DNA of 64,000 nt from Desulfuromonas acetoxidans DSM 684. Lineage in GTDB: Bacteria > Desulfobacterota > Desulfuromonadia > Desulfuromonadales > Desulfuromonadaceae. The notes beneath the pieces were generated by a model. It saw nothing but the letters and a program-made list of their open reading frames with translations. It was not told the DNA's origin and did no database searches. Shown piece by piece: positions 663 through 37,369 of this stretch. Made by a program: the position numbers and the translations under genes. The DNA is taken from the NCBI RefSeq assembly GCF_000167355.1, contig NZ_AAEW02000011.1, positions 1 through 64,000 on the forward strand, written 5' to 3'. Numbering within the stretch: position 1 is the stretch's first letter; the number at the start of each line of letters is the position of its first letter.

Positions 663-762
663 GCCTTAAACGTCGGAAAGTGGCATAATTCCTCTTTTGC
701 AATGTTTCCCGAGAGACTCCAAATTTACACGTTATTTTCACGACGAAAGTTTTAAGATTATC

Positions 763-2388
763 ATGACTTATGAGCAATCTCCTTTAGGTCGTCTCATTCC
801 GTCTACAGATCAATCTCTGTCGACAGTGGACACATCGACCTTGCGTGAGGCACTAATGCGACTTGCCACGCCGGTCTGCATGACCAACGAGGGGGTAACC
901 ACTCAAGGTACGGTGTGTTTCGACCCTCAGTCCACTCAGGGCACCCCTTTAACCGGATTGGCCCTGCCCCTGCCACTTGAGCGGTGTGGCGATGCCGTTT
1001 TTTGTGCTGCCCATGGCCTGCGCTACCCGATGGTCGGTGGTTCCATGGCCAAAGGGATCAGTTCCGCTGCCATGGTGATTGAACTCGGCCAACATGGCAT
1101 GCTCGGTTTCTTTGGTTCTGCGGGCCTGCCACTTGAAACCGTGGATGCTACCATTACCCAGTTACAGCAAGCGCTTCCTGAAGGGCCGTTCGGGGTCAAC
1201 CTGATCCACAGCCCCAATGAACCAGATCTGGAAAATGCTCTGGTTGATCTGTATCTGAAACGCAACGTGCACCTCATTGAAGCCTCGGCGTTTTTATCTC
1301 TTAGTCCGGCTGTCGTGCGCTATCGTCTTCACGGCATTCACCGTGATGGCCAGGGAAATATTGTCACACCGAACCGAATTATTGCCAAGGTGTCCCGAGA
1401 GGAAGTTGCACGCCATTTCCTGTCGCCACCGCCACAGAAAATACTCGACGAACTGGTTGCTCAACATGTCATCACTGCCGAACAGGCTGCGCTGGCACGT
1501 CAGATCCCCATGGCCGAAGACGTGACGGCCGAAGCGGACTCCGGCGGTCATACCGACAACCGTCCAGCGTTGTCGTTATTCCCGACCATCTGTGCCCTAC
1601 GCGATACGCTCCATCAGGAGTTCGGTTATGCAACCAAACCACGTGTTGGTCTGGGCGGCGGCATTGCGACGCCGACTTCTGCCGCAGCAGCCATTGCCAT
1701 GGGCGCAGCTTATCTGGTCACCGGAACCGTTAACCAGGCATGCTGCGAATCCGGCACATCTGACATTGTTCGCCAGATGCTGGCCGAAGCCCGTCAGGCA
1801 GACATTGCCATGGCTCCAGCCGCAGATATGTTTGAGATGGGTGTTGATGTGCAGGTATTGAAACGGGGCACCATGTTTTCGATGCGTGCAGCCAAACTGT
1901 ATGAACTGTACAAACGTTATGCCAGCCTCGACCAATTGCCGGTTGACGAACGCGACAAACTTGAAAAAACTTTTTTCCGGGCGTCGCTCAACGATGTCTG
2001 GAACAGCACCCGGGAGTTTTTTCTCAAACGCGATCCACGCCAAGTTCAACGAGCCGAGCAAGACCCCAAACATTTGATGGCGTTAGTCTTCCGTTCTTAT
2101 CTCGGCCAGGCCACTCATTGGGCCAACGACGGTGACACCAGCCGTCGCATGGACTTTCAAATCTGGTGCGGCCCGTCCATGGGGGCTTTTAACGAATGGG
2201 TTCGCGGCAGCTTTCTCGAGCAACCACACCAACGGCGGGTGGTTTGCGTCAATCTCAACATTCTTTTCGGTGCGGCCGTTCTGACACGGGCCAATACCCT
2301 GCGTCGGCAAGGCGTTGTCCTCAACGAAGCCGACGTGCTGACCACACCATTAACCACTGAACAGATCAAGGAGTGCCTACGTGACTGA
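763..2388 (+). CDS. pfaD: PfaD-type FMN-dependent trans-acting enoyl reductase
   Basis: This 541-aa protein is a TIM-barrel flavoprotein of the PfaD / nitronate-monooxygenase-like family, the separate enoyl reductase that works with the Pfa polyunsaturated fatty acid or secondary lipid synthase. Features seen are the family N-terminal region, glycine-rich barrel stretches (GGSMAKGISS, GLGGGIATPTSAAAAIAMGA) and the C-terminal helical part. The frame is open from 697, but ATG 763 gives the usual N-terminus (MTYEQSPLG); no strong Shine-Dalgarno is visible for either start. The stop overlaps the GTG start of pfaA by 8 bases, so the two are translationally coupled. No pfaB or pfaC partner is present in the window. 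Confidence 0.9.
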   Translation: MTYEQSPLGRLIPSTDQSLSTVDTSTLREALMRLATPVCMTNEGVTTQGTVCFDPQSTQGTPLTGLALPLPLERCGDAVFCAAHGLRYPMVGGSMAKGISSAAMVIELGQHGMLGFFGSAGLPLETVDATITQLQQALPEGPFGVNLIHSPNEPDLENALVDLYLKRNVHLIEASAFLSLSPAVVRYRLHGIHRDGQGNIVTPNRIIAKVSREEVARHFLSPPPQKILDELVAQHVITAEQAALARQIPMAEDVTAEADSGGHTDNRPALSLFPTICALRDTLHQEFGYATKPRVGLGGGIATPTSAAAAIAMGAAYLVTGTVNQACCESGTSDIVRQMLAEARQADIAMAPAADMFEMGVDVQVLKRGTMFSMRAAKLYELYKRYASLDQLPVDERDKLEKTFFRASLNDVWNSTREFFLKRDPRQVQRAEQDPKHLMALVFRSYLGQATHWANDGDTSRRMDFQIWCGPSMGAFNEWVRGSFLEQPHQRRVVCVNLNILFGAAVLTRANTLRRQGVVLNEADVLTTPLTTEQIKECLRD

Positions 2389-8300: not shown

Positions 8301-9484
8301 TTGGCCAAGTTGATTACGCCATGGCCAATGAGGTACTGAACAAAACAGCCCAGGCCCTGTCTCGCCAGAAAACAGACTGTCGCGTCCTGGCAATCAACTG
8401 GGGGCCATGGGACGGTGGTATGGTTACTCCGGCGCTGAAGAAACTCTTTGCTGATGAAGGCATTGAAGTGATCGATCTGGCTGCGGGTTCCCAATATCTG
8501 TTACAGGAGCTGACCCGCCAAGATGGTCAGGTCGAAATTGTCATCCTCGGTGAGCATAAAAAACCCAACGACCATGACCAACAGGATGCAGAGACTTCGG
8601 TTGATCTGAGCGCCAGCCCCATTACCGAATGCTATCCGGAGCTGGCGTTAACCCTCCAGATTACGCCTCAAACTATGGCTGTGTTACAGGATCATGTCAT
8701 CGATGGCATGGCGGTCGTGCCGACGGCTTTAATCATTGAATGGATGGCGCATGGGGCCATGCACAATTATCCCGGAATGCAGTTTATCGGCTTTGATAAC
8801 CTGCGCATTTTCAAAGGGATTCGCCTGACCGCGGATGAAGAATACGACGTGGAGTTGCGTAACCAGCAGGGCCGCTTTGAAGAGGACCTGATGCGTATTC
8901 CCATGCAGATTGTTGCGGCCAACTCCAAGCGGATTCACGCCAGTGGCGATATTCTACTGTCATCGTTCCGCGAACTGACCGCGCCAACCATCACACCGCT
9001 CTCAGTCGATACGGAGCGAGCGCAATCTCACGAGCAGATTTACGCTTCAGGCCAACTGTTCCACGGCGCGCTTTTGCAGGGGATTCAACAGATTACCGGT
9101 GAAGGGCCGGAAGGAATCGTGGGCGTTGCAGAATCGGCCCCCTCGCCGCAACAATGGATGGCATCACCGTTACGTTATGACTGGCTGACCGATCCGATGA
9201 TTCTTGACAGCAGCTTTCAGATGATGATTCTGTGGAGCTTTGCAGAGAAAAGTCAGGGGTCGTTACCCATGTTTGCCGGACGCTATCGCCAATATCGTGA
9301 ATCGTTCGGCACAACCCCGATTTATATTCAATGCCGCGTGGTCAAACAGAGCGGCCAGGTTGTCGAAGCCGATATTGACTTTATCGATGCGAACACGCGT
9401 GAGATCGTCGCTCGTCTTGAAGGCTATCAATGCACCATGACACCGACCCTGGAACAGGCCTTTGCCAACAACACCTTAGTCTAA
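2381..9484 (+). CDS. pfaA: PfaA-type polyketide/PUFA synthase, KS-AT-ACPx5-KR-DH
   Basis: This is a 2367-aa multidomain synthase. The ketosynthase spans roughly residues 18-475, with Cys219 (DAACGSS), His354 (EAHGTGT) and His393 (GHTKAAAG). The acyltransferase is around 570-880, with Ser680 in GHSYGE. After a Pro/Gln-rich linker come five near-identical acyl carrier domains, each with LGIDSIKR; the phosphopantetheine serines are 1115, 1211, 1300, 1395 and 1495. A ketoreductase follows (GGARGVT near 1795, Tyr1979), then a C-terminal hot-dog dehydratase-like domain. This order matches PfaA of iterative long-chain lipid synthases. Start: GTG 2381 with AAGGAG 7 bases upstream, inside the end of pfaD. 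The chain-length-factor/dehydratase partner (PfaC) and the PPTase are not in the window, so the product cannot be named. Confidence 0.93.
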   Translation: MTDSGAQTQTTDKNTAAKPLAIIGIGCLFPQANGKDAYWANIKGAIDSITDVPETHWRTADLYDPDPKTPDHTYGKRGGFLDPIEFNPMEFSIQPNILEAIDTSQLLGLIAAREALRDAGYDPQSDFARDRVSVLLGVTGALEMVIPLGARLGHPQWRKALKDAGVPADVAQEVVERIADSYVPWQENSFPGLLGNVVAGRISKQFDLGGTNTVVDAACGSSLSAVHMAAMELACGRSDMVITGGIDTFNDIFMYTCFSKTPALSPSNLVRPFDHQSDGTLIGEGLGLIALKRLEDAERDNDHIYAVIRGVGAASDGKGGAIYEPSASGQKRTLIDAYRQSQVDPRTISLLEAHGTGTKVGDATEIKALREVYGESDGAPWCALGSVKSQIGHTKAAAGSAGLIKTALALYHKILPPTINVEQPQTVITEGNSPFYVNTVTRPWLANPNHPRRAAVSAFGFGGSNFHCVLEEYLSEPTCCDFSDAPLLFALSGQDRSTLETALGQLASAPKDAVRRRAAQSRQAFNSNDPHRLLFVVDKPADLPGVIDKAKKVLTTQAPLNGTPQGIWYGQGPSQGKLAVLFPGQGAQYLQMLADLSCHAPQLLAQLQDGDDVLSLDDGTSLSSLIYPHSLFSSEQRQQAEQRLQATQHAQPAIGTVSLGAWNYLRNHYGLEAQAFAGHSYGELTALCAAGCYGSDDLLRLSRLRGTLMAGDGSDKGTMLAISAPLDEIEQMIREENLCLVLANHNTPNQGVLSGEREEISRAETLCKQRKMRCTPLDVAAAFHSPLVAAASKPFHNALQEIDVQVPQCAVYANKTALTYPQEPGQITTLLAEQIASPVKFVRQIEQMYADGFTTFFEVGPGARLTGMVKKILADKEVQTIALDASNGKRSGLSDLAKALVQLAALGCPVDLSRWDDQFVTRMEQLPEPKPAKMTVTLTGANYVKEKPARPASKRHLVDADQIPTPTPVAQPTTQSVVSHASNDDVAALKSLQENMAVLQQMQEDTARLHQKFLEGQAAAVDTMRVLMDQQQPTMAATRPSTPPAAVPKAPQAPRMTAPQPSAARPVSQPAPQPNAEPGNSVQDALLDVVAEKTGYPQEMLELEMSLDADLGIDSIKRVEILSALQEAVPGLPAVQPEQLGSLETLRQIVEALGAVDLSAPQVVASATAAASGSDTNVQAALLDVVAEKTGYPQEMLELDMSLDADLGIDSIKRVEILSALQEAVPGLPAVQPEQLGSLETLRQIVEALGTVDLSASPAASGSNTNVQDALLDVVAEKTGYPQEMLELDMSLDADLGIDSIKRVEILSALQEAVPGLPAVQPEQLGSLETLRQIVEALGSVEIAAPTVAVVASAVSQTAGTLQTALLDVVAEKTGYPQEMLELDMSLDADLGIDSIKRVEILSALQEAVPGLPAVQPEQLGSLETLRQIVDALGATDTPQPPAAIDQAPPSAPSASTTAKSVQEALIAVVADKTGYPQDMLELDMSLDADLGIDSIKRVEILSALQEAIPELPAVQPEQLGSLETLRQIVEALTQQAPGAEEQTAIQTPVVTTETPAVPSPSQVSSQPVAPATVKEPDPNATVRREVIQLDVVGQQRQPYTLSTNAPLWLVDDCSSLVPTLASTLKGEGYPVKIVSPTQTEVPDQLAGLVIIAPEIGTDSHFLRDAFSLVQRCAPALKKQSAQQSACLVTVSRLDGQCGFGSQSLLRDPLSGALAGLCKTARLEWPELTCKAIDVSDTLTDKELSTALIDELLLTGPIEIGISREGLTTPVLVDAPLPEDSDSIQMTGDDIVVISGGARGVTAEVATHLAQCGQPTLLLLGRSALPEVEPDWLAAARTDADIKRTLMEHAEAPLKPRELNDQCTRVLQQRELTANLDRLRQAGSKVIYKALDIRDEKAVAEALDEARQEGTVRGIIHGAGVLADRKIEDKTLEQFDQVYSTKVAGLQALLHASANDPLRFIVMFSSSTGRFGRVGQVDYAMANEVLNKTAQALSRQKTDCRVLAINWGPWDGGMVTPALKKLFADEGIEVIDLAAGSQYLLQELTRQDGQVEIVILGEHKKPNDHDQQDAETSVDLSASPITECYPELALTLQITPQTMAVLQDHVIDGMAVVPTALIIEWMAHGAMHNYPGMQFIGFDNLRIFKGIRLTADEEYDVELRNQQGRFEEDLMRIPMQIVAANSKRIHASGDILLSSFRELTAPTITPLSVDTERAQSHEQIYASGQLFHGALLQGIQQITGEGPEGIVGVAESAPSPQQWMASPLRYDWLTDPMILDSSFQMMILWSFAEKSQGSLPMFAGRYRQYRESFGTTPIYIQCRVVKQSGQVVEADIDFIDANTREIVARLEGYQCTMTPTLEQAFANNTLV
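5620..6990 (+). repeat. Five tandem acyl-carrier-protein coding repeats in pfaA
   Basis: Five units, spaced about 265-300 bp apart, encode nearly identical carrier domains (each contains SLDADLGIDSIKRVEIL). Units 1-4 are most alike and unit 5 is the most divergent (AIPELP instead of AVPGLP). The linkers are short and Ala/Ser/Pro-rich. In this family, carrier number affects product titre rather than chain length. The repeats are prone to recombination, so copy number could vary between strains. Confidence 0.92.
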
Positions 9485-16626: not shown

Positions 16627-18030
16627 ATGCCCTGTACGGCAAAGTCCCTTAGCAGGCAGCTGAAAAACAGCCTGTGGAACCGATGGACGGGACGTTTTCA
16701 ACATCCTGTTAAATCGCTGTGGCTGGTTTCTGGCGTTTTAGCGACACTGCTGTGTCTGCCGACGTTGGGAATGACGTTTCCCTCTGAACAGAAACACCCA
16801 CAGGCGCACAATAAATCGGTTCAACGCTCTATAACCCTGGAGCAAGCCACTCTTTTAGCACTTAAAAATAATGCCGGCCTCAAAGCAAGCTACCATGAAG
16901 GTCTGGCGATCGAAGCCGAAGGCCGACAACGTTCTGTGCTGCCAAATCCCGAAATTGCCCTCGAATTCGAAGAGTTCGCCGGTAGCGGAGAGCATTCCGG
17001 CAGTGAGGCGATGCAAACCTCATTGACCATCAGTCAGCGCATTGAACTTGGCCACAAACGTGCCCGCCACCAACAGGTTGCCGTGCGCAAAAACGATGTC
17101 ACAGCCGCTCAACAAGCATTACAGGCGACGGAAGTCATCCGCCAAACCCGGCAGTTTTATCGTCACGCCCTCGTCGCGCGCGAACAATTGCGTCAGGCGA
17201 ATAAAAATGTGGTTCAGTGCCAAACCCTGATCACCAGTATTGAAGAATCGATCCGGGCCGGCAAAAAAGCCCCAATTGAAGCCCAGCGCATCATGCCACT
17301 TCAGGCGCAAGCACAATTACGCCTGCTCGCTGCCCAGACCACACTGAAAGCCAGCCGACAACAATTGTGCTCGATGTGGCAGGGCCGCGAAGAAGAGCTG
17401 GGTGTTCTGGACGGGTCATTGAGCGACATTCAGCATCTTCCCGGTCTCGCGGAGTTACACAACCAAATCGACCAGACCACAACAGTGCGACTGGCCCGGA
17501 AAAACCATCACCTCAAACAGGCCCGATTCGAACTTGAACAGGCCAATAGAATTCAGGATGTCACACTGTCTGTCGGCGTCAAACACGACAGTTCAACAGA
17601 AGACACTGCACTGATCGCAGGCCTTTCCGTACCATTCCCCCTGTTTGACCGCAACAGCGGCAACATTGACGCGGCCCGGAACCGCACCGATCAAGCAGAA
17701 CAAGCGCTGCTGCAAGCCCGACAAACGGTCTGGCAGAAGCTTATTGAAAGTCATCGACTGGCATCCATTGCCCAACAGGAGATCGTCACCTTTGAGCAGC
17801 AGTTATTACCCACGGCTCAAGCGGTATTTGAGTCGGTAACGTTTGGCTACAACCAGGGCAAATACACTGTTTTGGATGTTCTGGATGCGCAAAACCGTCT
17901 GATGAAAAGTCAAGATCGTTACCTGAACGTCCTTGCCGATTATCACAGCAGTCTCACCAACCTGGAAGCTCTGTTTGATTTTCAACTCACTAAAACAACA
18001 GCAGCTTTTGCTGATCCTGATGAGGAATAA
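16627..18030 (+). CDS. CzcC/CusC-type outer membrane channel of metal efflux pump
   Basis: This 467-aa TolC-fold outer membrane factor has repeated long helices (LEQATLLALKNNAGLKA, VALRKN-type heptads, VFESVTFGYNQGKYTVLDVLDAQ). It forms the outer duct for the adaptor and pump encoded immediately after it. GGAGG precedes ATG 16627. Oddity: the first 25 or so residues (RQLKNSLWNRWTGRFQHP) are encoded by a copy of a dispersed repeat also seen at 29308-29460, and the hydrophobic export signal (LWLVSGVLATLLCLPTLG) only starts near residue 36. The repeat seems to have replaced or extended the original N-terminus. Confidence 0.87.
   Translation: MPCTAKSLSRQLKNSLWNRWTGRFQHPVKSLWLVSGVLATLLCLPTLGMTFPSEQKHPQAHNKSVQRSITLEQATLLALKNNAGLKASYHEGLAIEAEGRQRSVLPNPEIALEFEEFAGSGEHSGSEAMQTSLTISQRIELGHKRARHQQVAVRKNDVTAAQQALQATEVIRQTRQFYRHALVAREQLRQANKNVVQCQTLITSIEESIRAGKKAPIEAQRIMPLQAQAQLRLLAAQTTLKASRQQLCSMWQGREEELGVLDGSLSDIQHLPGLAELHNQIDQTTTVRLARKNHHLKQARFELEQANRIQDVTLSVGVKHDSSTEDTALIAGLSVPFPLFDRNSGNIDAARNRTDQAEQALLQARQTVWQKLIESHRLASIAQQEIVTFEQQLLPTAQAVFESVTFGYNQGKYTVLDVLDAQNRLMKSQDRYLNVLADYHSSLTNLEALFDFQLTKTTAAFADPDEE
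16649..16712 (+). repeat. Short copy of a dispersed palindromic repeat inside the CzcC-type gene
   Basis: GCAGGCAGCTGAAAAACAGC, then CCTGTGGAACCGATGGACGG and TTTTCAACATCCTGTTAA, match the left and right parts of the repeat at 29308-29460. The middle is missing. The element is translated as part of the outer membrane protein. Confidence 0.65.
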
Positions 18031-18033
18031 AAA

Positions 18034-19374
18034 ATGACGAAGAACTGGAAAAACAGTCTGGCTTTAACAGCGATCACCCTGCTGTCAGTCGGCATGATGA
18101 CATCACCCATTCAATCGGCAACACATGACCATGCTCACGAACAGGAGCATGTTGAAACAACCCACGATGATCACGGTCACGAAGCGGATGAACATGAAGG
18201 CCATAATCACGGCAGTGCCACCGACTACTGTCCGGAGCATCAGATGCTGGAAAAGGTCGATGCCCTGTGTCAGGCCGGTCATATTGGCGATTTGCCTTTG
18301 GGCCAAGGGATGATGGTTCGGCTGTACGATGAAAATGTTGCCGCAAAAACCGGCATCGTCACCGCCCGTCCGCAGCCCATTCACAGCCTGGGAGGTGAAA
18401 CCTTTCTCGGCCAGGTGGCCCTCAACCGCAATCGACTGGCAAAGATCACTTCCCCGGCTCCGGGTCTGGTGACAACCGTCCATGTCCAACCGGGAACACA
18501 GGTCTCACAGGGACAAGCCCTGCTGACCGTGGACATTCCCCAACTGGCCACACTGAAAAGTGACTATCTTGCCGCCCAGGCCAGAGTTGAGCAAAGCCGC
18601 ACCCACTATGAACGGGAACAACTCCTGCTCGAAAAAGGGATCACCTCAAAACATGAATTTCAGCAGGCACGCAGTCTGGCGCTTCAGGCCGGAAGTGATG
18701 CCGACCGCTATCATCAGCAATTGCTCAACACCGGTCTGACCAGTGACGAGATCAACCAACTTATGGAACAGCGCCACACCGAAACACGCATCACCTTGCG
18801 GGCGCCATTTGCCGGTACCGTCACGGATGTGGCCACCGCTCAAGGGGAGCGGATCAGCGATCAAACGGCCGTCATTACTCTGGCCAACCTCGACACCCTG
18901 TGGCTAGAAGTCGCTGTCCCGGAAACACAGCTTCAGCACCTGCACGCCGGAGCGCCGGTTCAGGCACGTTTTGCCGCTCTGCCCGGCAGAGTTTTTACCG
19001 GCAAGCTGTTTTTTCTCGGCACACAAATTGACCCGCGCAGCCGCATGCTAACGGCCCTGGCTGAAATTGACAACACAACCCACCTGCTCAAGGCCGGTCT
19101 CTACGGTGATGTGGCTCTGGTCGCAGAAGAGTCAGAACAGGAGCTGGCCATTGATGCCAATGCCGTTCAGATGCTGAATAACACACCCTATGTGTTTATT
19201 GCCCATGAAGACGATCTGTTTGAAATCCGCCGGGTTGAGATTGGCACCCGCACCAATCATCTGGTTGCCGTGACTGGTATCAACGCCGACGACGCCATTG
19301 TCGTGCAACAGGGCTATGCACTTAAATCAGAAGTGCTCAAAGCCAGTCTCGGCGCCTCCTGCGCGGATCACTAG
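18034..19374 (+). CDS. CzcB/CusB-type periplasmic adaptor with His-rich N-terminus
   Basis: This 446-aa membrane fusion protein has a signal segment (about 9-28). A long His/Asp/Glu-rich stretch follows (residues 30-65, many HDH and HGH pairs) with a CPEH...C pair. Then come the barrel-sandwich/lipoyl, alpha-hairpin (about 165-245) and beta-barrel domains. It links the inner-membrane pump to the outer-membrane channel, and the His-rich region probably binds periplasmic Zn2+ or similar ions. It starts 3 bases after the channel gene with GAGG upstream, so the genes form one operon. Confidence 0.88.
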   Translation: MTKNWKNSLALTAITLLSVGMMTSPIQSATHDHAHEQEHVETTHDDHGHEADEHEGHNHGSATDYCPEHQMLEKVDALCQAGHIGDLPLGQGMMVRLYDENVAAKTGIVTARPQPIHSLGGETFLGQVALNRNRLAKITSPAPGLVTTVHVQPGTQVSQGQALLTVDIPQLATLKSDYLAAQARVEQSRTHYEREQLLLEKGITSKHEFQQARSLALQAGSDADRYHQQLLNTGLTSDEINQLMEQRHTETRITLRAPFAGTVTDVATAQGERISDQTAVITLANLDTLWLEVAVPETQLQHLHAGAPVQARFAALPGRVFTGKLFFLGTQIDPRSRMLTALAEIDNTTHLLKAGLYGDVALVAEESEQELAIDANAVQMLNNTPYVFIAHEDDLFEIRRVEIGTRTNHLVAVTGINADDAIVVQQGYALKSEVLKASLGASCADH

Positions 19375-19384
19375 GGGGGCGCTG

Positions 19385-22300
19385 ATGTTCAATAAACTGA
19401 TTGAAATCTCCCTGCGTAATCGTCTGGTGGTCGCCCTGCTGTTTGCCGTGGCCTTTGCCAGTGGCAGCGTGGCTTTGCTTAATCTGCCCATCGATGCATT
19501 TCCCGACACCACGCCGGTTCAGGTACAGATCAACACCATTGCTCCGGCCCTCGGACCGGAAGAGATCGAAAAGCAGCTTTCGTTACCCGTTGAACTGGCG
19601 GTGTCCGGCCTGCCGGGGCTGGTGCATGTCCGATCCATTTCAAAATTCGGCCTGTCACAGGTGGTGGCCATTTTTGAAGATGAGATGGCGATTCTCGACT
19701 CGCGCCAATTGATCATGGAACGCCTCGCCTCTGTGCAGTTACCGGAAGGGATCGACCCACCGGAACTGGGGCCGATCTCCACCGGGCTCGGCGAAGTGTT
19801 TCACTACATGCTGCGCTCCGACAATCCCGAACGCACCCTGGCAGACCTGCGCACGTTGCACGACTGGGTGATCAAGCCTCAGTTGCGCAAAGTGCCCGGT
19901 GTTGCCGAGATCAACTCCTGGGGTGGCAAAGAGAAGCAGTATCACGTCATTGTGTCGCCGACATCCCTGATAAAATACGGTCTGACCTATGACGATGTGG
20001 CCACCGCCCTGCGCGACAACAACGCCAATGTCGGTGGTGGTCAGGTTGAAACCGGCGGCCAAACGCTGCTGGTTCATGGCCTCGGTCGGGTCAGCAACAC
20101 CGAGGAAATTGGTGCAATCGTCATTGATGCCGTTGATGGTGTGCCGATCCGCATCAGCGATGTCGCCAAGGTCGCCATCGATCATGAGCTGCGTCGTGGT
20201 GCCGTCTCGGCCGGTGGCCGTGGGGAAGCGGTGATGGGTCTGGGCTTTATGCTCATGGGCGAGAACAGTCGCGACGTTACCCTGGCACTGAAACAGGCGC
20301 TGGACACGGTGGCCCAATCCCTGCCCGACGACGTTATTCTCGAAACCGTCTATGACCGCACCGAGTTGATTGATCAGGTCATAGCCACGGTGGAACACAA
20401 TCTGATCGCCGGAGCGATTCTGGTGATTGCCGTGCTCTTTTTGCTACTCGGCAATCTGCGCGCCGGCCTGCTCGTCGCTGCGACCATCCCCATGGCCATG
20501 CTATTTGCCGCGCTGGGCATGCAATCGCTCGGCATTACTGCCAGCCTACTGTCTCTCGGTGCCATTGATTTCGGCATTCTCGTTGACGGTTCATTGGTCA
20601 TGACCGAAGCCAACCTGCGTCGTTTGACCGCGCGTCAGATCGAGCTTAATCGCACCCTGACCGCCGGGGAACGCTTTGCCGTCATCCTCGAATCCAGCCG
20701 CGATGTGGTGCGGCCGATTATCTTCGGCATGGCGATTATCATCATCGTCTTTCTACCGGTGCTGACCCTGGAAGGGATTGAAGGCAAGATGTTCAGTCCC
20801 ATGGCCCTCACCTTCATTGTCGCGCTGGTTGGTGCTTTGCTGGTTGCTGTATTTCTGACGCCGGTCTTGTCTTTTGCCTTTCTGCCGCGCACGTTCAAGC
20901 CACGCACGCGGGCGATGACACAACGGATGAAAGACCTATACGCCAGCCTGCTTTGCCACGCCCTACACTGGCGTAAAGCCTTTTTCAGCGTGGTGGTGCT
21001 GGTGTTCCTTGCCACCATGGCCATCTCATTTCGCCTCGGCGGTGAATTTTTACCCAAGATGTCGGAAGGCTCCCTCGTCGTCAGTGTTGTCCGCCTTGCC
21101 GGTGTGTCCATCGAGGAATCCATCGCCTACAACACCCGCATGGAGCAACTGCTGATCGACGAGTTCCCCAATGAAGTGCGAACGGTATGGAGCCGCATCG
21201 GCAGCGCTGAAGTTGCGACTGATCCGATGGGCACCGAACTAACCGACATGTTCCTTGCCCTGACGCCCAAAGAACAATGGACACGAGCGTCCAGCCAGCA
21301 TGAGCTGACAACGCAGGTTGAGCAGGCCTTGCACGGACTGCCCGGAATCCGCAGCGTCTTGACCCAACCCATTGAACTGCGGGTCAATGAAATGATCTCC
21401 GGCATTCGCGGTGATGTCGGCATTAAGATCTACGGCGAGGATTTTGACACCCTGGTGGAACTCGGGGAACAGGTCGAGCACGTCATGACCACCATCCCCG
21501 GTGCCGCCGATGTCGCCGTTGAGCAGATCACCGGCCAACCCACCCTGCAGATTGAAGTGGATCGTCAGGCGTTGGCCCGTTACGGGGTTGCTGCCAAAGA
21601 TGTGCTGGATATTGTCAGTGCCATCGGCACGCCGAAAGTTGGTGAAGTTTATGAGGGGGAACGCTCGTTTCCCCTGGTTCTGCGCGTGCCCGACCAATTG
21701 CGTCATGATCCGGTCGCTCTGGCCAACACCCTGATTCCCACCCGAACCGGAGCAGTGCTGCCGTTGAAGCAACTGGCCACTCTGAGCGTGGTTGACCGCC
21801 CTTCCACCATCAACCGCGAATGGGGACGTCGTTTACTTAAAGTGCAGGTCAATGTCCGCGACCGTGACATTGCCAGCTTTGTCGATGAAGCCCGAGCACG
21901 CATCTCAGATGAGATTATCTTACCCGACGGCTACCTGATTGAATGGGGCGGCCAGTTTGAGAACCTTGAGCGTTCTCAACAACGGCTGATGATTGTCGTG
22001 CCCATCACCTTGCTGCTGATTTTCATCCTGCTCTATTTCAGCCTCAAGCGATTCAGCGATGTGCTGATTATTTATACGGGGATTCCGCTGGCCGCCATCG
22101 GTGGTGTGATCATGCTCTATGGTCGCGGTATTCCGTTCAGTGTCAGTGCAGCCATCGGTTTCATTGCTTTGTCCGGCATTGCCGTACTCAACGGCCAGGT
22201 GCTCATCGCAGCCATCCGCAGTATGATCAATGACGGCATGGCACTGCGTCAGGCCGTGGTTGCCGCATCACGCCAACGGCTGATTCCGGTGTTGGCCACA

Positions 22301-22489
22301 GCGATTACTGATGCGGTCGGCTTTTTACCCATGGCTCTGTCGGTGGGCGTCGGTGCTGAAGTTCAACGCCCTCTGGCCAGTGTTGTGGTTGGCGGAGTGC
22401 TCACGTCAACAGTGCTGACACTGTTTGTGTTACCGAGCCTGTATCTGATCATCCATGAACGATCGGCCCGAAAAATAGAGACAGAATAA
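19385..22489 (+). CDS. czcA: CzcA-type heavy-metal RND efflux pump
   Basis: This 1034-aa inner membrane protein has twelve predicted TM segments and two large periplasmic loops. The TM4 signature AIDFGILVDG is of the Czc-like (divalent Co/Zn/Cd) type and differs from the Cus (Cu/Ag) motif. It uses the proton gradient to drive metal out through the adaptor and channel. ATG 19385 (GGGGGGC upstream) is chosen over an earlier in-frame start inside the adaptor gene. A terminator follows at 22514. Zn/Co/Cd specificity is inferred from the motif and the His-rich adaptor. Confidence 0.9.
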   Translation: MFNKLIEISLRNRLVVALLFAVAFASGSVALLNLPIDAFPDTTPVQVQINTIAPALGPEEIEKQLSLPVELAVSGLPGLVHVRSISKFGLSQVVAIFEDEMAILDSRQLIMERLASVQLPEGIDPPELGPISTGLGEVFHYMLRSDNPERTLADLRTLHDWVIKPQLRKVPGVAEINSWGGKEKQYHVIVSPTSLIKYGLTYDDVATALRDNNANVGGGQVETGGQTLLVHGLGRVSNTEEIGAIVIDAVDGVPIRISDVAKVAIDHELRRGAVSAGGRGEAVMGLGFMLMGENSRDVTLALKQALDTVAQSLPDDVILETVYDRTELIDQVIATVEHNLIAGAILVIAVLFLLLGNLRAGLLVAATIPMAMLFAALGMQSLGITASLLSLGAIDFGILVDGSLVMTEANLRRLTARQIELNRTLTAGERFAVILESSRDVVRPIIFGMAIIIIVFLPVLTLEGIEGKMFSPMALTFIVALVGALLVAVFLTPVLSFAFLPRTFKPRTRAMTQRMKDLYASLLCHALHWRKAFFSVVVLVFLATMAISFRLGGEFLPKMSEGSLVVSVVRLAGVSIEESIAYNTRMEQLLIDEFPNEVRTVWSRIGSAEVATDPMGTELTDMFLALTPKEQWTRASSQHELTTQVEQALHGLPGIRSVLTQPIELRVNEMISGIRGDVGIKIYGEDFDTLVELGEQVEHVMTTIPGAADVAVEQITGQPTLQIEVDRQALARYGVAAKDVLDIVSAIGTPKVGEVYEGERSFPLVLRVPDQLRHDPVALANTLIPTRTGAVLPLKQLATLSVVDRPSTINREWGRRLLKVQVNVRDRDIASFVDEARARISDEIILPDGYLIEWGGQFENLERSQQRLMIVVPITLLLIFILLYFSLKRFSDVLIIYTGIPLAAIGGVIMLYGRGIPFSVSAAIGFIALSGIAVLNGQVLIAAIRSMINDGMALRQAVVAASRQRLIPVLATAITDAVGFLPMALSVGVGAEVQRPLASVVVGGVLTSTVLTLFVLPSLYLIIHERSARKIETE

Positions 22490-22822: not shown

Positions 22823-23380
22823 TCACGGCTTTGTCATCTCAACAAGCCGGTCCAAAAGAGCAAAATAGTCCTCAGAACTAATCGCTCCCATAAGGTTGGC
22901 CGACCAGACACCGTCAAACGCATAACGGGCAATATGCAGAGCTGGATCCTGATCTGTCTCCTGATGAGACGCCAGACGGCCGTGAATCCATTCGTTCCAC
23001 AAAACTCTGAATTGCGGTTCGGTCAGGGCACAGAGTGAGAAGGCTTTCCACACATCCGCTTCCCGTTGCGGAGCGATATTTTGAAGAGCCACCATGATAT
23101 AGGCGCGAGTAAAGCGTCCATACGCCACGGGATCCTGCTCAAGCGCCTGGTCAATTTCCTCGTCCAACTTTGTGAGAAAATCCTTGAAGACCGATTCAAT
23201 CAGTTGCCGTTTATCACTGAAATGGTGAAAAAGTCCACCTTTTGTCACCCCGGCGGCGTCGGCGACAGCCTGAATGGTCAGGCCTCCCGGTCCCTGTTCA
23301 GCGGCAATGCGTGCCGCACATTCGATCAGCTTACTGCGGACTTTTTCAGGTTGTTTTTTGCGTCTAGACGGGGTGGTCAT
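22823..23380 (-). CDS. TetR-family repressor of the efflux operon
   Basis: This 185-aa protein has the TetR N-terminal helix-turn-helix (GGLTIQAVADAAGVTKGGLFHHF, residues about 32-55) and an all-helical ligand-binding C-terminus. It is the last gene of the minus-strand efflux operon, 3 bases after the pump fusion gene. The likely operator is the perfect palindrome at 29156-29177 in front of the first gene, giving autoregulation together with the pump. The ligand is unknown, probably a toxic amphiphile. Confidence 0.9.
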   Translation of the reverse strand: MTTPSRRKKQPEKVRSKLIECAARIAAEQGPGGLTIQAVADAAGVTKGGLFHHFSDKRQLIESVFKDFLTKLDEEIDQALEQDPVAYGRFTRAYIMVALQNIAPQREADVWKAFSLCALTEPQFRVLWNEWIHGRLASHQETDQDPALHIARYAFDGVWSANLMGAISSEDYFALLDRLVEMTKP

Positions 23381-23383
23381 TAT

Positions 23384-26300
23384 TTACCTCATTTCCATCT
23401 CTTGTAACGCTTCCATCGGCGTCCAACCGCCGCCCATAGCGCGATAGAGACGCACGATATTTTGGCTGACGGCACCTTCACTGACAACTCGTTGCTCCTG
23501 AAAGGAGAGTAACGAGCGTTGCGCATCAAGCACAGCATTGAAGTCGGTCAGCCCGTTACGATATTGGTCTTTGGCCAAGAACTCGGCTGTTTGTGCTGCG
23601 GTCACGGCACGATTCAGCGCAACATAACGCTCCTGCTCTTTGCGGTAATCCATCAGTGCATTACGCACCTCTTCCACTGCGGTCAGCACGGCGGATTCAT
23701 AGGCTTGTAAATATTGTTCGCGAACTGCTTGCTGAACCTTGATGTTGTTGCGGATGGAGCCAAAGTAAAAGATCGGCCATTGCACCCCGGGGATAATGCT
23801 GTAGCGTTCACTTTCCGAGGTCAGCAAATCCGAGGTGTTGAGAGATTCGAGACCAATGGAACCGGTCAGGGTAAAGCGTGGGTAGAGATCAGCCGTAGCC
23901 ACACCTATCCTTGCGGTCTGAGCGGCGAGCTGACGTTCGGCACGCTGAACATCCGGACGGCGACGAAGCAGATCCGCAGGAATGCCTTCAACCTCCACCG
24001 TGGAACGGGGAATTTGACTCAAAGGTTCCAACGCCACGCTACCCGGTAAGACCCCGATCAGCACGCACAGTGCATTGTAGGCGGATTCCACCTTAGCTTC
24101 GAGGGTGGGAATGGATGAACGGGTACTTTCCAAATTGTAGGTGGCCTGCTGCAGAGCCAGGTCATTGTCCAGTCCCGCCTGCCTGCGGTCAGCGAGAATG
24201 GCATGGGTTTCCTGCTGGATGGCCAGATTGTCGCGCGCCACGACCAGTTGATATTGCACGGTGCGCAATGCGATATAAGCCAAAGCGGTCTCAGCGGCAA
24301 CAGAAACCTGCACATCGCCTAGATCGATCAACATGGATTGCCAATCGGCATTGGCTGCTTCAACACTGCGGCGGGTGCCTCCAAACACGTCGATCTCCCA
24401 TGCCGCATTCACACCGGTATCATACAAAGTCGATTCACCGGCATTCTCAGATGCATTCTCAGACGTTTTGCTGCGCGAAACCGAACCGAGCGCGTCCAAT
24501 GTCGGCCACAAGGCGGCTTTGCTACGAGCCAGCGTCGCACGCGCTTCGCGCACCCGTGCCACTGCCGTTTTCAAATCACGGTTGTTGGCCAGTGCCTGCT
24601 GCACCAGTTCAGTCAACAGTGGATCATTAAACTGGGTCCACCAGTCACCAACATCCACTGCTTGTTCGAAAGCACCTTCAATCACGACAGGATCAGGACG
24701 TTGATAATCAGGCCCGACTGTTATGCACCCGTTCATGATAAACGGCAGGATCATCAGCACCAGGGTGGTCAGATGAGAGCGACTGTGGCGCAAACGGAAC
24801 GCATGGCCTTTCTCCCGCCAGGTCTGAAACATCACGTAGAGTGCCGGCACCAGAACAATGCCGACCAGCGTCGCGGCAACCATCCCGAAAAATACCGTCG
24901 TGCCGATGGAACGGCGGCTGGCAGACCCGGCACCAGAGGCAAACACCATGGGCAGCACACCGAGGATAAAGGTAAACGCGGTCATCAGCACGGCTCGAAA
25001 GCGCTGTCCGGCCCCTTCGGATGCGGCTTCAAGGATTGACAGCCCCTCTTCACGTTGGGTTTTGGAAAATTCAACAATGAGTATGGCGTTTTTACTGGCC
25101 AGACCAACCAGAAGAATAATACCGAGCTGGGCATAGATACTCAGTGGCAAACTGACCGCGATCAACCCGGCCAACGCACCAAAGATGGCAACGGCGGTTG
25201 ATACGATAACCGGCAGTGGAATAATCCAGCTTTCATATTGCGCGACCAGAAACAGATAACCAAACAGCACGGCCATCAGCAACAGAACATAAGTGCCACC
25301 GGAAGAACGCGCCTCCTGATAGCTCAGGCTCGACCAGTCAAAGGTGTAGCCACGCGGCAAATTCTGTTGCGCAACGGCGGCGACCTTAGCCATTGCATCG
25401 CCACTGCTGGTTGACGGCATGGCAACGGCGTTGATGCTGGCCGATGTAAACTTGTTGTAGCGCTCGATATTTCGCGGTGCCTGCATGGTATCTATGGTGA
25501 CCAGACTGCGCAACGGCACCATGGCACCGGTGGTGCTCTGCACATAGATGCCCTCAAGGGCATCGACATTGTTGCGAAACGGCCAGTCCGCCTGAATCAC
25601 AACCTTATTGACCTGACCGGCAAAGTTGACATCATTGACATACAACGAGCCAAAATAATTTTGCAGCACACCAAACAAACGATTGACATCGACATTCATC
25701 AAGGCCGCTTTGACCCGATCCACCTCAAGATGCAGGTGCGGCGTGTTGGACGAATAGGTACTGAACGCCATCATGATCTCCGGCGCCATGTTCAGTTGCA
25801 TGAGAAAGCTGTTTAACACCGCCTGCAGTTTCTGTGGATCGTCTTCTTCCGTGGACAGTAACCGGATATCCATACCGCCGCTAACACCGAGGCCCATGAT
25901 GGCCGGTGGCGTAAACAGATTGATTTGGGCACTCGGCACAGCCGCCACGCGCCCCTGAAGCTTTTGTTGAATGGCAGAAATCGTCAAATCCGCGGAATCG
26001 CGCTTGGCCCAGTTTTCCAAGCCGACTAGAAAAAAGGCAACATTTTCACCGGAGCCTCCCATCATGCTGAAACCGGTGATCTGCATAACAAAATTAACGC
26101 CTTCCTCATCTTTCAACGGCGACACCACCTCATCCAAAACCCGGCTGGTTCGACCAAGACTGGCCCCTTCGGGCAACTGCAACATGCCGAAAATAATCCC
26201 CTGATCTTCATCGGGCAAAAAGGTGGTTGAACTGTGCGAAAACAGAAAATAACTGCCGCCGATGGCTCCGAGCAGAATGAGTGCCGTCACCACCAGTCGA

Positions 26301-27895
26301 CGGGCAATTCCCAGACTGAGCGCTACATAATGGCCACGCAACCGTCCCAGGGTCGTGTTAAACCATTTCAACGGTCCATGCTCTTTAGGAGGAACAATAC
26401 TGAGCATCGTGGCGCACAACGCCGGACTGAGGGTTAAAGCGTTCACGGTTGAAAAAAGGACGGCGGCGGAAATGGCAACGGAAAACTGCTGATAGATTTT
26501 ACCGGTAATGCCTTCCATGAAGCCCACCGGGACAAAGATCGCCAGCAAAACCAGTGTCGTGGCGATAACCGCGCCACTGACTTGCTCCATGGTCTTAATC
26601 GTCGCCTCTTTGGGACTGAGCCCTTCGCGGGTCATCAATTCCATGACCCGTTCGACAACGACAATCGCATCATCCACCACCAGTCCAATCGCCAGCACAA
26701 GACCAAACAGCGTGAGGATGTTAATACTGTAACCCAGCACACTCAGCACCATAAAGGTGGCGCACAACGACACCGGAATCGTCAACGCAGGAATCAGGGT
26801 AGCACGCCAATTCTGCAAGAAGACATAACACACCAGAACGACCAGAAAGAAGGTCAAGCCCAGCGTGGTGGCAATCTCCCAGATACTGGTACGGACGAAT
26901 TCCGTCGCATCATAGGGCAACACAAGTTCCAGCCCTTCGGGAAACTGGGCTTTCAAATGCTCCAGCTCGCTGCGCACCGCATCCATGGTATCAAGAGCGT
27001 TCGAGCCCGGCGTACGGTTCAAGCCCATGGCCACACAATTGTCGCCATTGTATTTGGCGTTATACAGGTATTGATCGGCGCCCTTTTCCACACGGGCAAC
27101 ATCTTTGAGATAGACCACAGCACCATCGGCAGCGGTGCGAATCACGATATCAGCAAACGCGTCCGGATCATTGAGGCGGCCCTCGGTTTTCAAGCTATAC
27201 ACCAGTTTGGACGAACCATCACCCGGTGTTGCTCCAAGTGAACCAATGGATGCCTGGAGATTTTGAGCCCTGATGGCTGAGGCAACATCTTCCGGGCTGA
27301 GGTTTAGAGCCGCAAGACGATCAGCATCCATCCACACACGCATGCTGTATTGAGCGCCCCACACCTGAGCACGGCTGACACCCGCGATACGCTCCAGCGC
27401 CGGCTTGATGATCTTTGACGCATAGTCACTCAGGTAAAGATCATCCAGGCTGCCGTCCGTTGAACGCAGCAGCATAAACCCCAGCATGTCACTAGATTCC
27501 GTCTCAACGGTCACCCCCTGCTGAGTAACTTCACTTGGTAACAGCGGCTCAGCCTGGGCAACACGGTTCTGTACCTTGACCTGCGCCATGTCGGTATCCG
27601 TACCAACCTCAAACGAGATGGTGAGCTGATAACTGCCTGTGTTATCCGAACTCGACGACATGTAGATCATGTTTTCAACGCCGTTAACCGCATCTTCAAT
27701 CGGGCTGGCCACCGTCGCCGCCAGCACTTCGGCACTGGCACCGGGATAACTGGCCCGAACATTGACCTGCGGTGGTGTCACTTGCGGATACTGGGCAATT
27801 GGCAGAGCAAAAACCGAAAGAATGCCCGCCAGCATCAACACGATGGAAACAACACCCGCCAGACGGGGACGTTCGATAAAAACGCGAGAGATCAT
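23384..27895 (-). CDS. Fusion of HAE1-type RND efflux pump and NodT/OprM-type outer membrane factor
   Basis: This is a single 1503-aa frame. Residues 1 to about 1035 form a complete AcrB/MexF-like RND pump ([10 protein letters not shown] start, TM4 Asp pair in [16 protein letters not shown], final TM near [19 protein letters not shown]). Residues about 1042-1062 ([19 protein letters not shown]) are a lipoprotein signal peptide with lipobox Cys1057. Residues 1057-1503 form a full OprM/NodT outer membrane factor ([26 protein letters not shown]). In most bacteria these are two genes. No stop codon and no good internal ribosome site is seen at the junction. The start overlaps the adaptor gene by 4 bases (ATGA). 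Confidence 0.88.
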
Positions 27896-29046
27896 TGTGC
27901 CCCCTCTTGCAGAGTCACTTGGGCCGTGACACCCGGCTGCACCTTCAGCAAGCCTTCGATCACAACACGATCCCCCTCCTTAAGGCCTGAAAGCACCTCC
28001 CGGTCGCGACCGAGGGTTTTCCCCAGGGTGACACGTGCCACGCTCAACAAGCCGTTGTCATCCGCCGTCAGCACATAATCCCCTTGCGCATCAACCAGCA
28101 ATGCCTGTTGCGGCACACTCAACCCCATGGGCCGCTGCGTTTTTTCGAGGAAAATATTGACATAACTACCGGGAATCAGAAGTCCGTCAGGATTGTCAAA
28201 CTGAAACCGCAAAGCAATGGTGCCGGTTTGTGCGTTCATTTCGTTATCAGCAAACGCCTTGCTGCCAACCCCGTCATAAAGCGTCTTGTTCGGCAAAAGC
28301 ACCTTGGCGGCATAATCATCAGCCGTGCCAGACACTTCACGCTGGCGTAGTGAGACATACGAACGATCCGTCATGGAAAAAACCACCCGGATGGGATCCA
28401 TCTGAACAATTTTGGCCAGCTCACCCGATGCCGGGGTGACATAATTGCCTTTGGTCACCAACGCCGCACCAATGCGACCACTGATCGGCGCATGAATCTC
28501 ACAAAAGCTTAGATCAAGCTTTGCCAGATTCAGGGTGGCGTGCGCCTGCTGCACAGCCGCGCGAGCCTGTTGTTCAGCGCTCTCCGCCGTATCAAAATCC
28601 GTTTGTGAAATACTTCGTTCACTGGCCGCGCGCAACCGATTCAGATATTTTGTTGCCCGTTCCAGCTCAGCACGCGCCTGGGCCAATTCCGCCTGGCGCA
28701 CCTCAACAGTGGCCTGGTAACGCCGCTTATCAATGGTGAACAGCAGCTCACCCTGCTTAACAAGATCCCCCTCCTTAAAACGAACCTCATTGAGATAACC
28801 GGAAACTTCAGGCTTTACCACCACATCCTGAATCGACTCCACCATGGCGATATATTTATCCTGCGTATCTAAAGGCGTCATACCAATCACCTGCGCCACC
28901 ACTTTGGGCTGCGGCCTTTGACCGCCGGCCATCGGTGCTTGCAGAACCTGCCCCGGCCCCATCAGGCTATGGGCAAAAAATCCCGCTGCCACAGCAACTG
29001 CGATGCCAATCAAATAGCTCAATGTCTTTGCGGCATTGTTCTTCAT
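27892..29046 (-). CDS. AcrA/MexE-type periplasmic adaptor of RND efflux system
   Basis: This 384-aa membrane fusion protein has an N-terminal hydrophobic anchor ([16 protein letters not shown]). Lipoyl halves flank an alpha hairpin ([36 protein letters not shown]), followed by a beta-barrel domain. It couples the pump to the outer membrane factor. ATG 29046 is preferred, with AAGGAG about 11 bases upstream; the frame is open from 29106. It is the first gene of the adaptor / pump-channel fusion / TetR operon. Confidence 0.9.
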
Positions 29047-29155
29047 AAAATGAACAGCTCCTTCAAATAAAAATATCAACACGCTCCGCCGGAATTGGCC
29101 TTTCAAATCGACCGCGGGTATGGTGATAAACGCCCTGCCCCCGCTTTTCGCATCA

Positions 29156-34268: not shown

Positions 34269-37265
34269 TCAAAACAACCACTCCAATCCCAAGCTGAACT
34301 GACCTGTGCGGTATCCGCCACTTTCCTGAACCGTTCGCTGATAACCCAGCCGGGTCGTGATGCCATTGGTGAACGCAGCATTGACAAACAGGCTCAGCTC
34401 CACACCATCATCGGCACCATCACGACCATCAATGCGGAAGCTCTCTCCACTGTCGATAAAAGCCGCTTCCGACTGCTCGCCATCTGCATTAAAAGCATGG
34501 TGCCACACCGCACCCAATTGCGTCAGCAAGGTCACCTCTTCATGGCGATAGCTATGTTCAATCTTAAAACCGGTCACGCTGCGCAGAAGCTCTGAGTCTT
34601 TGTCCGATATCCGCAAGGATGCACTTTGTGCTCTTTGCTCCGTGAAACCATCCTCCTGCATCCACAGATATTCAAGTCCGACAGTGGGCACAATATTCCA
34701 GGACGCCATGGTGACGCGATAGCCGCTATTGACGTGAATTGCACCGTGGCTGGCATCGTGTTCACTTTCGGCCTCACGACCGAGAAAGGCAATGGCACGT
34801 TTGGTGTCAATACTGTCGGTGCCGATGCCAACAGCTGTTTGAGCAAACCAGCCACCTTGACTGTTCGGATTGTCCCAGTGACTGTAGAGATAGCCGTCCC
34901 ATGACAGGCGGTCTGCCGTCGAAGCACCATCCAGCTCATGCAGATCACTGTTGGTGTAGGCTCCGGCCATACCGACCAGCAGCGCAGGCGTAACCTGCTG
35001 TTCAACGCCCATCATGATGCCGGTGGTTTTGGCGCGAAAGGCCGGGCTTTGGGCAACGTCGTCATAGCGAGCATTGTCGCCGACCATCCGCACCCACACA
35101 CGCTGCTGCTTGGATTGGGGCTGATCGGTTCCAAGGCGCTGTAACAGCTGTGTGTTTCGTTGATGGATGGCATCAAGTGTGGCAGCGGTTACAGACGTGT
35201 GGATGCGCGGCGTCAGGTCATCCATGGCTGTGTGCAGATCGGACAAGGAAAGACTATCGAGGGTGTTAAGGATGACGGCTTCATCACCGCTAGCGGTCGG
35301 ACGCTGACCATCCAGCGCTTGGGCAAGACCGACCTGTTCGGCAGTTGCAGCCAGTGACGCGTAAGTGTTGCGCTCGATGTCGAGAGCAAGGCTGTTAGCC
35401 AGACTCTCGTTAAGGACAGCGCTAAACACGGCCGGATTCCACAGCCCATCAAAGGTGCCTTGCAGCGTTCCGGCCTCAAGGATGGTGTAGTGTCCGCTGG
35501 TCAAGTAACCGGAAGGAAGCAGCGCCAGTGTGCCGCCCTGCAGATCGGCGGTGCCGGTAACACGCAGCAGGTCAGAAGAGCCGTCGCCGGCTTCGATTTC
35601 AAGTACGGCGCCGGATTCCTGGGTATAATCACCATCGATGGTCAGAGTTCCGATGGAGTTGCCGGGCGCAACAGCACCTTGGTTGATGACCGGGCCATAG
35701 ATGGTGCCGGTGCCTTTGAGGGTGCCCTGCTCGCAAATGGTCAGGGCTTCAAAATCGGCATGACCATTCAAGCTCAGTTCTCCAGACCCCAGATAGCCCA
35801 GCCAATTGCCGACGATGTCATCATCAAAACGAAAGTGGAAATCCGAGTCCAGCCCGACGGTAGAGCCTTCTTCATCAATCACATAACCAAACCGAACCAC
35901 CGCAGGATAGCCCTCGGCGATCAGATCACCATCGATCTGGCAGCCACTCCCGAGAAAGAGTCTATTGAACATCCTAAAATACACAGCTGTATCAGCAGTG
36001 ATTGTGGCTTCAGACAAAACAATGTCGTTTGTTTGGTTCGGCACATAGATCCCAACAGCACTCTCTCCTTGCACAAGAATCTCTCCACGAACAGAAATCC
36101 GGTTATCACAACCATCAAGGTACAAAGCGGTGGAGTGATCGCCTGTCGCTGTCAGGCTTCCGGTCAGATCAAGAACATTATTCTCGCCGACCAAACGCAC
36201 TGTATCGGAGAAATCACCGCGCGACTCTAAAGCGCCTTTTTGGACGATGCGATTTCCATCACCATTGACATAAAAGGCGTAGGTATAATCGTAATCGGTC
36301 AGAAAATCGTCATTTTCTTCAATAGTGGCATCATCACGGTAATAGGTCGCGCCAAAGGCGTTGTAGAAATCCATATTGATTCCCCAGCCCAGATCACGCA
36401 ACACATCGAGTAATAGCTTATTCGGGGCGCGAGTCACCTTACCTTCATGTCCAAACCAAGACATCAGTTCCCCATCGGGGCCAGTATGAATCAGGCTACT
36501 GCCAGATTTGAATTGATCTTCAAGTGTTGTAATTGGCATCTGCCCACCATAGGTGGAATTGGCATACTCACCCAACCAAAGCAGTGTTCCTTCCGGGCCA
36601 ATGACGGTCAACGCTTCCGGTGTGCCAAAGGTTCCAGCTTGCGGACGATTGCCGTCAACATCCTCAATCAGTGAGTCCCAGCGGCTCAGCGCTAGAAAGC
36701 CAAGTTCTTCCGAATAGCCGGAAGTGATTCCCAAACCATGAAAAATTTCATGGATGACAACGCTGGAAAAATCGCTTTGATTGCCAGGCAAACCATCGTC
36801 AAAATAATACGACTCATTTACATTGTATCGAATCAGAACATCCGCTGCTTGCGGGAAATAATCGGTTGTGTCACCATCACGCCAAGCGGCTCCGGCCGTG
36901 CTCACCCCTTGTCCGGCATCAAGATCAGTCAGTGCTGTTGTGTAAGCACCACCGAGGTTGTCTTCAGGAAGATCATCGCGCCAGGCCATGGCAATGCGGA
37001 TGGTACGACCCGGTTGATTGGTGATGGTGCTATTCAGAACCTCCAGACTGCGAATAACAGCGTCTTTCTGTTCCGCGCTCCAGGCGGTTGTCCCAGTGAA
37101 CATGTCCGGATCGTCAAACTGGATAAATTTACCACCAATCGCCGAGTCACCGGGGCCGAGAAATTCAATCTGGAATACGCCGACCTCGACAATGTCACTG
37201 GCCTGTAACGGCTGAGCAAAGAGGATTGCAACACAGAGAACAGCAAGGAGAAAATATCGCGTCAT
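34269..37265 (-). CDS. Autotransporter with HExxH metalloprotease-like passenger
   Basis: This protein of about 998 aa has a signal peptide (MTRYFLLAVLCVAILFAQPLQA). Its N-terminal domain carries HEIFHGLG (His172, Glu173, His176), a zinc-protease motif. A beta-helix-like region follows (about 320-640) with the passenger repeat APGNSIGTLTIDGDYTQ, then a C-terminal 12-strand autotransporter barrel (about 710-998) ending in Phe. It should be exported by the type V route and display or release a protease-like domain. The third zinc ligand of metzincins (HExxHxxGxxH) is absent at the usual spot, so activity is unproven. ATG 37265 is chosen over TTG 37271 because AAAGG lies 8 bases upstream of it. 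Confidence 0.85.
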   Translation of the reverse strand: MTRYFLLAVLCVAILFAQPLQASDIVEVGVFQIEFLGPGDSAIGGKFIQFDDPDMFTGTTAWSAEQKDAVIRSLEVLNSTITNQPGRTIRIAMAWRDDLPEDNLGGAYTTALTDLDAGQGVSTAGAAWRDGDTTDYFPQAADVLIRYNVNESYYFDDGLPGNQSDFSSVVIHEIFHGLGITSGYSEELGFLALSRWDSLIEDVDGNRPQAGTFGTPEALTVIGPEGTLLWLGEYANSTYGGQMPITTLEDQFKSGSSLIHTGPDGELMSWFGHEGKVTRAPNKLLLDVLRDLGWGINMDFYNAFGATYYRDDATIEENDDFLTDYDYTYAFYVNGDGNRIVQKGALESRGDFSDTVRLVGENNVLDLTGSLTATGDHSTALYLDGCDNRISVRGEILVQGESAVGIYVPNQTNDIVLSEATITADTAVYFRMFNRLFLGSGCQIDGDLIAEGYPAVVRFGYVIDEEGSTVGLDSDFHFRFDDDIVGNWLGYLGSGELSLNGHADFEALTICEQGTLKGTGTIYGPVINQGAVAPGNSIGTLTIDGDYTQESGAVLEIEAGDGSSDLLRVTGTADLQGGTLALLPSGYLTSGHYTILEAGTLQGTFDGLWNPAVFSAVLNESLANSLALDIERNTYASLAATAEQVGLAQALDGQRPTASGDEAVILNTLDSLSLSDLHTAMDDLTPRIHTSVTAATLDAIHQRNTQLLQRLGTDQPQSKQQRVWVRMVGDNARYDDVAQSPAFRAKTTGIMMGVEQQVTPALLVGMAGAYTNSDLHELDGASTADRLSWDGYLYSHWDNPNSQGGWFAQTAVGIGTDSIDTKRAIAFLGREAESEHDASHGAIHVNSGYRVTMASWNIVPTVGLEYLWMQEDGFTEQRAQSASLRISDKDSELLRSVTGFKIEHSYRHEEVTLLTQLGAVWHHAFNADGEQSEAAFIDSGESFRIDGRDGADDGVELSLFVNAAFTNGITTRLGYQRTVQESGGYRTGQFSLGLEWLF

Positions 37266-37369
37266 CGACAAAACCTTTTACCTGAAAGAGGTAAGATTAC
37301 GTGAACAGCTGACGAGTTATTCACGATTTTACACTTCATAATGAAGCGAGCAGCAAGGATTGTCCAAGA

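Follow-up and report, generated by a model that had tools for sequence, protein, structure and literature searches.

The window analysed here, a 64,000 nucleotide stretch of the Desulfuromonas acetoxidans DSM 684 genome, has on its minus strand a single open reading frame of 1503 codons, which begins with ATG at position 27895 and runs without an internal stop codon to position 23384 (Table 1). The preliminary description had given these coordinates, with the strand unstated, to a complete HAE1-type RND pump joined in frame to a complete outer membrane factor (OMF) of the NodT/OprM type, and full-length profile matches to both halves bear it out. In the pump half, the Pfam domain ACR_tran covers residues 2-1023 (profile positions 1-1020 of 1021, 1025 bits), TIGR00915 scores 1099 bits against a cut-off of 940 and NF000282 scores 1233, just below its cut-off of 1250. 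This half also matches the chains of the solved AcrB, MexB and CmeB structures. With hydropathy cut-offs of our own, 12 segments were called ahead of the one at the joint, with large gaps at residues 31-346 and 545-869, in keeping with the 12 transmembrane segments and pair of large periplasmic loops of an HAE1 pump. In the OMF half, the NCBIfam profile TIGR01845 (outer_NodT) covers residues 1052-1490 (profile positions 5-460 of 460, 336 bits, cut-off 210), and Pfam OEP matches in two stretches. A single-sequence AlphaFold model of the OMF (pLDDT 52) was discarded in favour of one based on a 42-sequence alignment (pLDDT 85.8, pTM 0.79), for which the top Foldseek match is OprN (5iuy, TM 0.86, 37% identity), with CusC and OprM also found.

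Table 1. Features of the fused gene, its joint and its immediate neighbours in the window.
Feature	Position	Strand	Basis
TetR-type regulator, directly downstream of the fused gene	22823..23380	-	TetR_N and TetR_C_28
Fused gene, HAE1-type RND pump and NodT-type OMF, 1503 aa	23384..27895	-	Reading frame and profile matches
OMF moiety, predicted mature residues 1057-1503	23387..24727	-	TIGR01845 full length, AlphaFold model, Foldseek
Lipobox M-N-G-C, residues 1054-1057	24725..24736	-	Invariant in 4/4 orthologues
Hydrophobic core of the putative internal signal, residues 1042-1053	24737..24772	-	Hydrophobic in all 4 orthologues despite sequence drift
Basic cytoplasmic pump tail, residues 1027-1041, putative n-region of the internal signal	24773..24817	-	Alignment by eye
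In-frame TTG codon 1035, rival start leaving a basic n-region before the core	24791..24793	-	Shine-Dalgarno pairing
RND pump moiety, residues 1-1026	24818..27895	-	ACR_tran, RND_permease_1/TIGR00915, AcrB/MexB/CmeB chain matches, hydropathy
Periplasmic adaptor RND_mfp	27892..29106	-	TIGR01730; 4-base overlap with the start of the fused gene

The start of the adaptor upstream is likely the ATG of MKNN, which lies 20 codons inside the listed ORF. Other genes of the window include a second RND system (16627-22489, plus strand) with separate genes for OMF, adaptor and a CusA/CzcA-type pump, which lies on the opposite strand 0.9 kb past the 3′ end of the fused gene. There is also a polyketide-synthase-like protein of 2367 aa (697-9484, plus strand) with KS, AT, carrier protein and KR domains; the protein ahead of it matches NMO and FabD_helical_ins, and we take the locus to resemble those of polyunsaturated fatty acid synthases. 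An autotransporter of 1000 aa (34269-37271, minus strand) has its PF03797 beta-domain at residues 725-978.

The basic stretch, hydrophobic core and lipobox cysteine at residue 1057 that had been reported at the joint are all present, and the 12 hydropathy segments ahead of it are consistent with the proposed cytoplasmic C-terminus of the pump and an in-to-out orientation of the joint segment. Cleavage is proposed to fall between G1056 and C1057. The usual lipobox of signal peptidase II (SPII) substrates is [LVI][ASTVI][GAS]C, from which MNGC departs at both -3 and -2, with n-region and core in place. This core pattern is found in 40 of 54 NodT lipobox segments, and those of the window clade are not among the 40. 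Asparagine at -2 occurs in five of the 54, three of them from the window clade and the other two from unfused NodT OMFs (L212 and L220), both with the lipobox LNGC. The gene for signal peptidase II, LspA, is encoded elsewhere in the same genome.

A search for the same fusion in relatives, proposed as a check on the first interpretation, found the fused frame in four of ten genomes of the genus, each verified from stop to stop as were all the fusions counted here as examined. Three of these four are assemblies of one or two contigs, and the frame is free of stop codons in all of them. A frameshift or assembly error was rejected, as the same frame is present in four assemblies from two clades. 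The fusions of G000 and G009 are near-identical and those of G007 and G008 are 89% identical to them, so that the window-type fusion is known from few sequences, effectively three distinct ones. Between the two clades, fourfold sites are about 60% identical and the proteins 89%, with dN/dS of 0.05-0.07 for the pump and 0.08-0.10 for the OMF; from these ratios both halves are judged to be kept by purifying selection. The gene order adaptor-fusion-regulator is also found in G007, G008 and G009, where adaptor and regulator were recognised from position and sequence, without a profile. At the joint, M1054, N1055, G1056 and C1057 are invariant in all four orthologues, and L009 and L011 have different residues, all still hydrophobic, at six of the 12 core positions. 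Retention of the Cys and Gly of the lipobox in 4/4, beside a drifting core, argues for an internal lipoprotein signal. G008 also carries an unfused paralogue (L019/L204) 49% identical to the window pump, with pump and OMF of 1058 and 491 aa in the same frame and one TAG between them.

In relatives from the order that lack the fusion, a basic tail REKGSAWRARR or similar and then a stop codon close the pump, and the OMF, with an n-region of its own, begins at an ATG that overlaps the pump end or lies near it. When these are aligned by eye with the fusion, the basic tail passes directly into the 12-residue hydrophobic core. On this alignment the OMF is seen to have lost its own start and n-region, for which the pump tail is the apparent replacement. 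At 17 loci, picked by similarity and not at random, pump and OMF lie in the same frame with a stop codon between them, and fusion therefore needs little.

Eight HAE1-NodT fusions were found, four of them from the window clade, and all eight have a hydrophobic core and a lipobox Cys, with one to eight K/R in the 14 residues ahead of the core. Two others come from the same phylum as the window, L203 (G311), with the joint end LLAGC and one K/R in these 14 residues, and L202 (G242), with ITGGC and five. The remaining two come from the class of Flammeovirga (Bacteroidota), namely L238 (G186), with LLGSC and eight K/R before the core, and L239 (G179), with VFYGC and five. Each of the four has both domains in one frame, 1521-1552 aa long. 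G278, from the genus of G311, has an unfused pump 87% identical to that of G311, and the G311 and G242 joints are of unequal length, which suggests more than one HAE1-NodT fusion event. The phylum-wide NodT search gave at least two fusions among the matches listed. A candidate in G232 (open frame 1117) was rejected as a fusion. HAE1 fusions look rare elsewhere: the class of Paraburkholderia (75 genomes) gave 30 HAE1 matches, none of them in a frame longer than 1111 aa, and in 60 genomes of the class of Flammeovirga two of 48 HAE1 matches were fused.

A survey of the same 60 genomes for CusA gave 63 matches (E ≤ 1e-250), 37 of them in frames reported as at least 1435 aa. The 30 of these long frames that were examined are all single-frame CusA-OMF fusions with both Pfam domains, at a median pairwise identity of 0.49, and for CusA the RND-OMF fusion architecture is common in Bacteroidota. 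The joint has a hydrophobic core in all 30, preceded in 29 by two or more K/R within 12 residues, the exception being L192, which has none. The joints have the appearance of signal peptidase I (SPI) signals, and 29 of the 30 have glutamine at +1 of a permitted site after the core (against 10/30 for F and N, which come next in frequency). Under the same site rule, control windows from mature OMF bodies have Q at +1 in 19 of 90; as the (-3,-1) rule is lenient and the CusA-OMF sequences are related, these counts are to be read as a strong tendency and not as a probability. In an independent alignment of the CusA-OMF fusions the +1 Q forms a nearly invariant column. Cleaved SPI substrates of Bacteroidetes have glutamine at +1, on average 71% across species (PMC5837995, partial text); the words efflux, TolC and CusA do not occur in the main text of that source. 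The CusA-OMF joints, as sequences, match this Q-rule, and Q+1 may be taken as a mark of cleavage since there is no reason why an uncut linker should follow it.

A third set of fusions joins RND_permease_2 pumps to TolC-type channels. Among 136 genomes of the order, five full-length examples were found (G008, G071, G074, G107, G108) together with a sixth match, L145, truncated at a contig end. The joints have SPI-type signals, and at sites chosen by eye four of the five fit the (-3,-1) rule, Ala occupying -1 and a small or aliphatic residue -3; in the remaining one, -3 is Trp. The example in G008 (L136:2642-7102, plus strand) is a second, unrelated RND-OMF fusion beside the window-type one of that genome. 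Its full-length relatives, 55-71% identical to it, are found in the four other genomes, from three other genera of the order. Joining an RND pump to an OMF is a recurrent architecture, and the window gene is not the sole case of it.

The reading best suited to these observations, to which we would give a probability of about three in four, is that the fused gene codes for an RND-OMF polyprotein which SPII is predicted to cut into a pump and a lipidated channel. Comparative evidence favours what the preliminary description had proposed, an internal lipoprotein signal in the right orientation, cleavage by SPII and two products; across the fusions the type of signal fits the channel, with a lipobox where the channel is NodT-type and an SPI-type site where it is TolC-type. 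Residues 1-1026 would form an AcrB-like pump of 12 helices in the inner membrane, its C-terminus in the cytoplasm. The basic tail and the short hydrophobic core would act as an internal lipoprotein signal to carry the OMF across the membrane, where Cys1057 would be lipidated by prolipoprotein diacylglyceryl transferase and LspA would cut before it. After the cut, the used signal would remain on the inner-membrane pump as a 13th helix at its C-terminus, and the channel, now a lipoprotein, would be delivered to the outer membrane. The adaptor for the pump would be supplied by the overlapping upstream gene, with the TetR gene behind, and the set would presumably serve in efflux. Tripartite efflux pumps need as many pump as channel protomers, located in two different membranes. 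With one message the two halves would presumably be made in equal amounts, and such a 1:1 ratio of pump to channel would fit the 3:3 stoichiometry of these assemblies. Points that count against SPII include the atypical N at -2 and the charge-free stretch of 21 residues at the joint, which is long enough for a transmembrane helix and could stay as one. We claim that the OMF of the window would work like an SPII substrate, as a candidate and not a proven member of that group.

The channel could instead be made separately as a pre-lipoprotein, by internal initiation near the joint at TTG codon 1035, with the fused chain as a by-product. This codon is conserved in 4/4 and lies within a 23-base block that is unchanged among three sequences, a start there would give a plausible lipoprotein signal, and 23 of 30 Bacteroidota joints have some in-frame ATG, GTG or TTG after TM12 and ahead of the core. 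However, Shine-Dalgarno pairing at TTG1035 is weak, at -3.2 to -4.1 kcal/mol against -7.7 to -11.1 kcal/mol at the pump start; for the window itself the values are -3.2 and -11.1 kcal/mol, and the codon ranks 57th of 146 in-frame start-like codons. Three other invariant runs in the gene are as long as the 23-base one and two are longer, and by eye the block can be aligned with the C-terminal pump tail found in unfused relatives; on these two grounds it was rejected as a mark of an internal start site. An ATG within the tail opens an 11-codon reading with better pairing (-7.4, and -4.3 in L011), which was rejected as it lies outside the OMF frame and ends at TGA. Moreover, an internal start would leave no unfused pump, as the halves have no stop codon between them. 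In the Bacteroidota, seven of 30 joints lack ATG, GTG and TTG over the whole stretch after TM12 (18 of 30 if counting begins about 9 residues after TM12), and elsewhere the position of the codon varies. Internal initiation cannot make the channels of those seven because they have no in-frame start codon there. For the window gene we regard it as unlikely.

A chain that is never cut, with the joint as a 13th transmembrane helix tethering pump and channel, is in our estimate very improbable. The 21-residue stretch could span the membrane, and a single uncut chain would likewise fix the ratio at 1:1. Such a chain would have no reason to preserve a lipobox, SPI sites or the Q+1 of the Bacteroidota. 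The N-terminal Cys of CusC is located at the outer membrane (PMC3017539, partial text) and OprM is likewise lipidated (PMC4486845, partial text), whereas the uncut chain would hold its Cys a full periplasm away from the CusC position. A non-functional or decaying fusion, tolerated thanks to the other RND systems of a genome with several other ACR_tran genes, is scarcely credible given dN/dS of 0.05-0.10 in both halves, the lack of stops in four genomes and the conserved order of adaptor, fusion and regulator.

Processing of an RND-OMF fusion through an internal signal was not described in the mainly open-access literature searched. In the portions covered of PMC8277102 (first 300,000 characters), PMC4446572, PMC11213822 and PMC12817139 there is likewise no RND-OMF fusion or processed internal signal. 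In the papers searched it appears undescribed that the joints of such fusions resemble, in sequence, working signal peptides of the type fitting each channel.

If cleavage is true, routine cutting of one chain would be a simple way of fixing stoichiometry and co-localising synthesis, and many 'fusion proteins' of Bacteroidota in the databases may really be two proteins. It would also mean that signals within multi-spanning membrane proteins are open to processing by LspA and signal peptidase I; we know of no precedent for LspA cutting at a signal still attached to a protein of 12 helices. We lean towards regarding the RND-OMF fusions as a recurrent, unrecognised class of polyproteins, with type I signals before TolC-like and type II before NodT channels, and the window gene as probably among the first polyproteins matured by SPII.

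Both halves of the window protein are full-length members of known families, the HAE1 pumps (AcrB, MexB, CmeB) and the OMFs (OprM, OprN, CusC), with an adaptor gene directly upstream. In those systems pump and OMF have separate genes, whereas in the window they share one frame without a stop codon. As a single chain with ACR_tran followed by OEP and a signal-like joint between them, it has the same layout as the CusA-OMF fusions of Bacteroidota, single frames with TIGR00914 and OEP in which an RND pump is likewise followed by an OMF after a signal-peptide-like joint. The latter differ in having a pump of another family, a TolC-like channel and an SPI-type site with Q+1 instead of a lipobox. 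A further parallel is the FbcH (cytochrome b/c1) polyprotein of Bradyrhizobium, one chain that an internal signal peptide divides into an inner-membrane part and an exported one. FbcH is cut by signal peptidase I and belongs to a respiratory complex with both products in the inner membrane, whereas the window protein has a predicted type II signal and a product that would be bound for the outer membrane.
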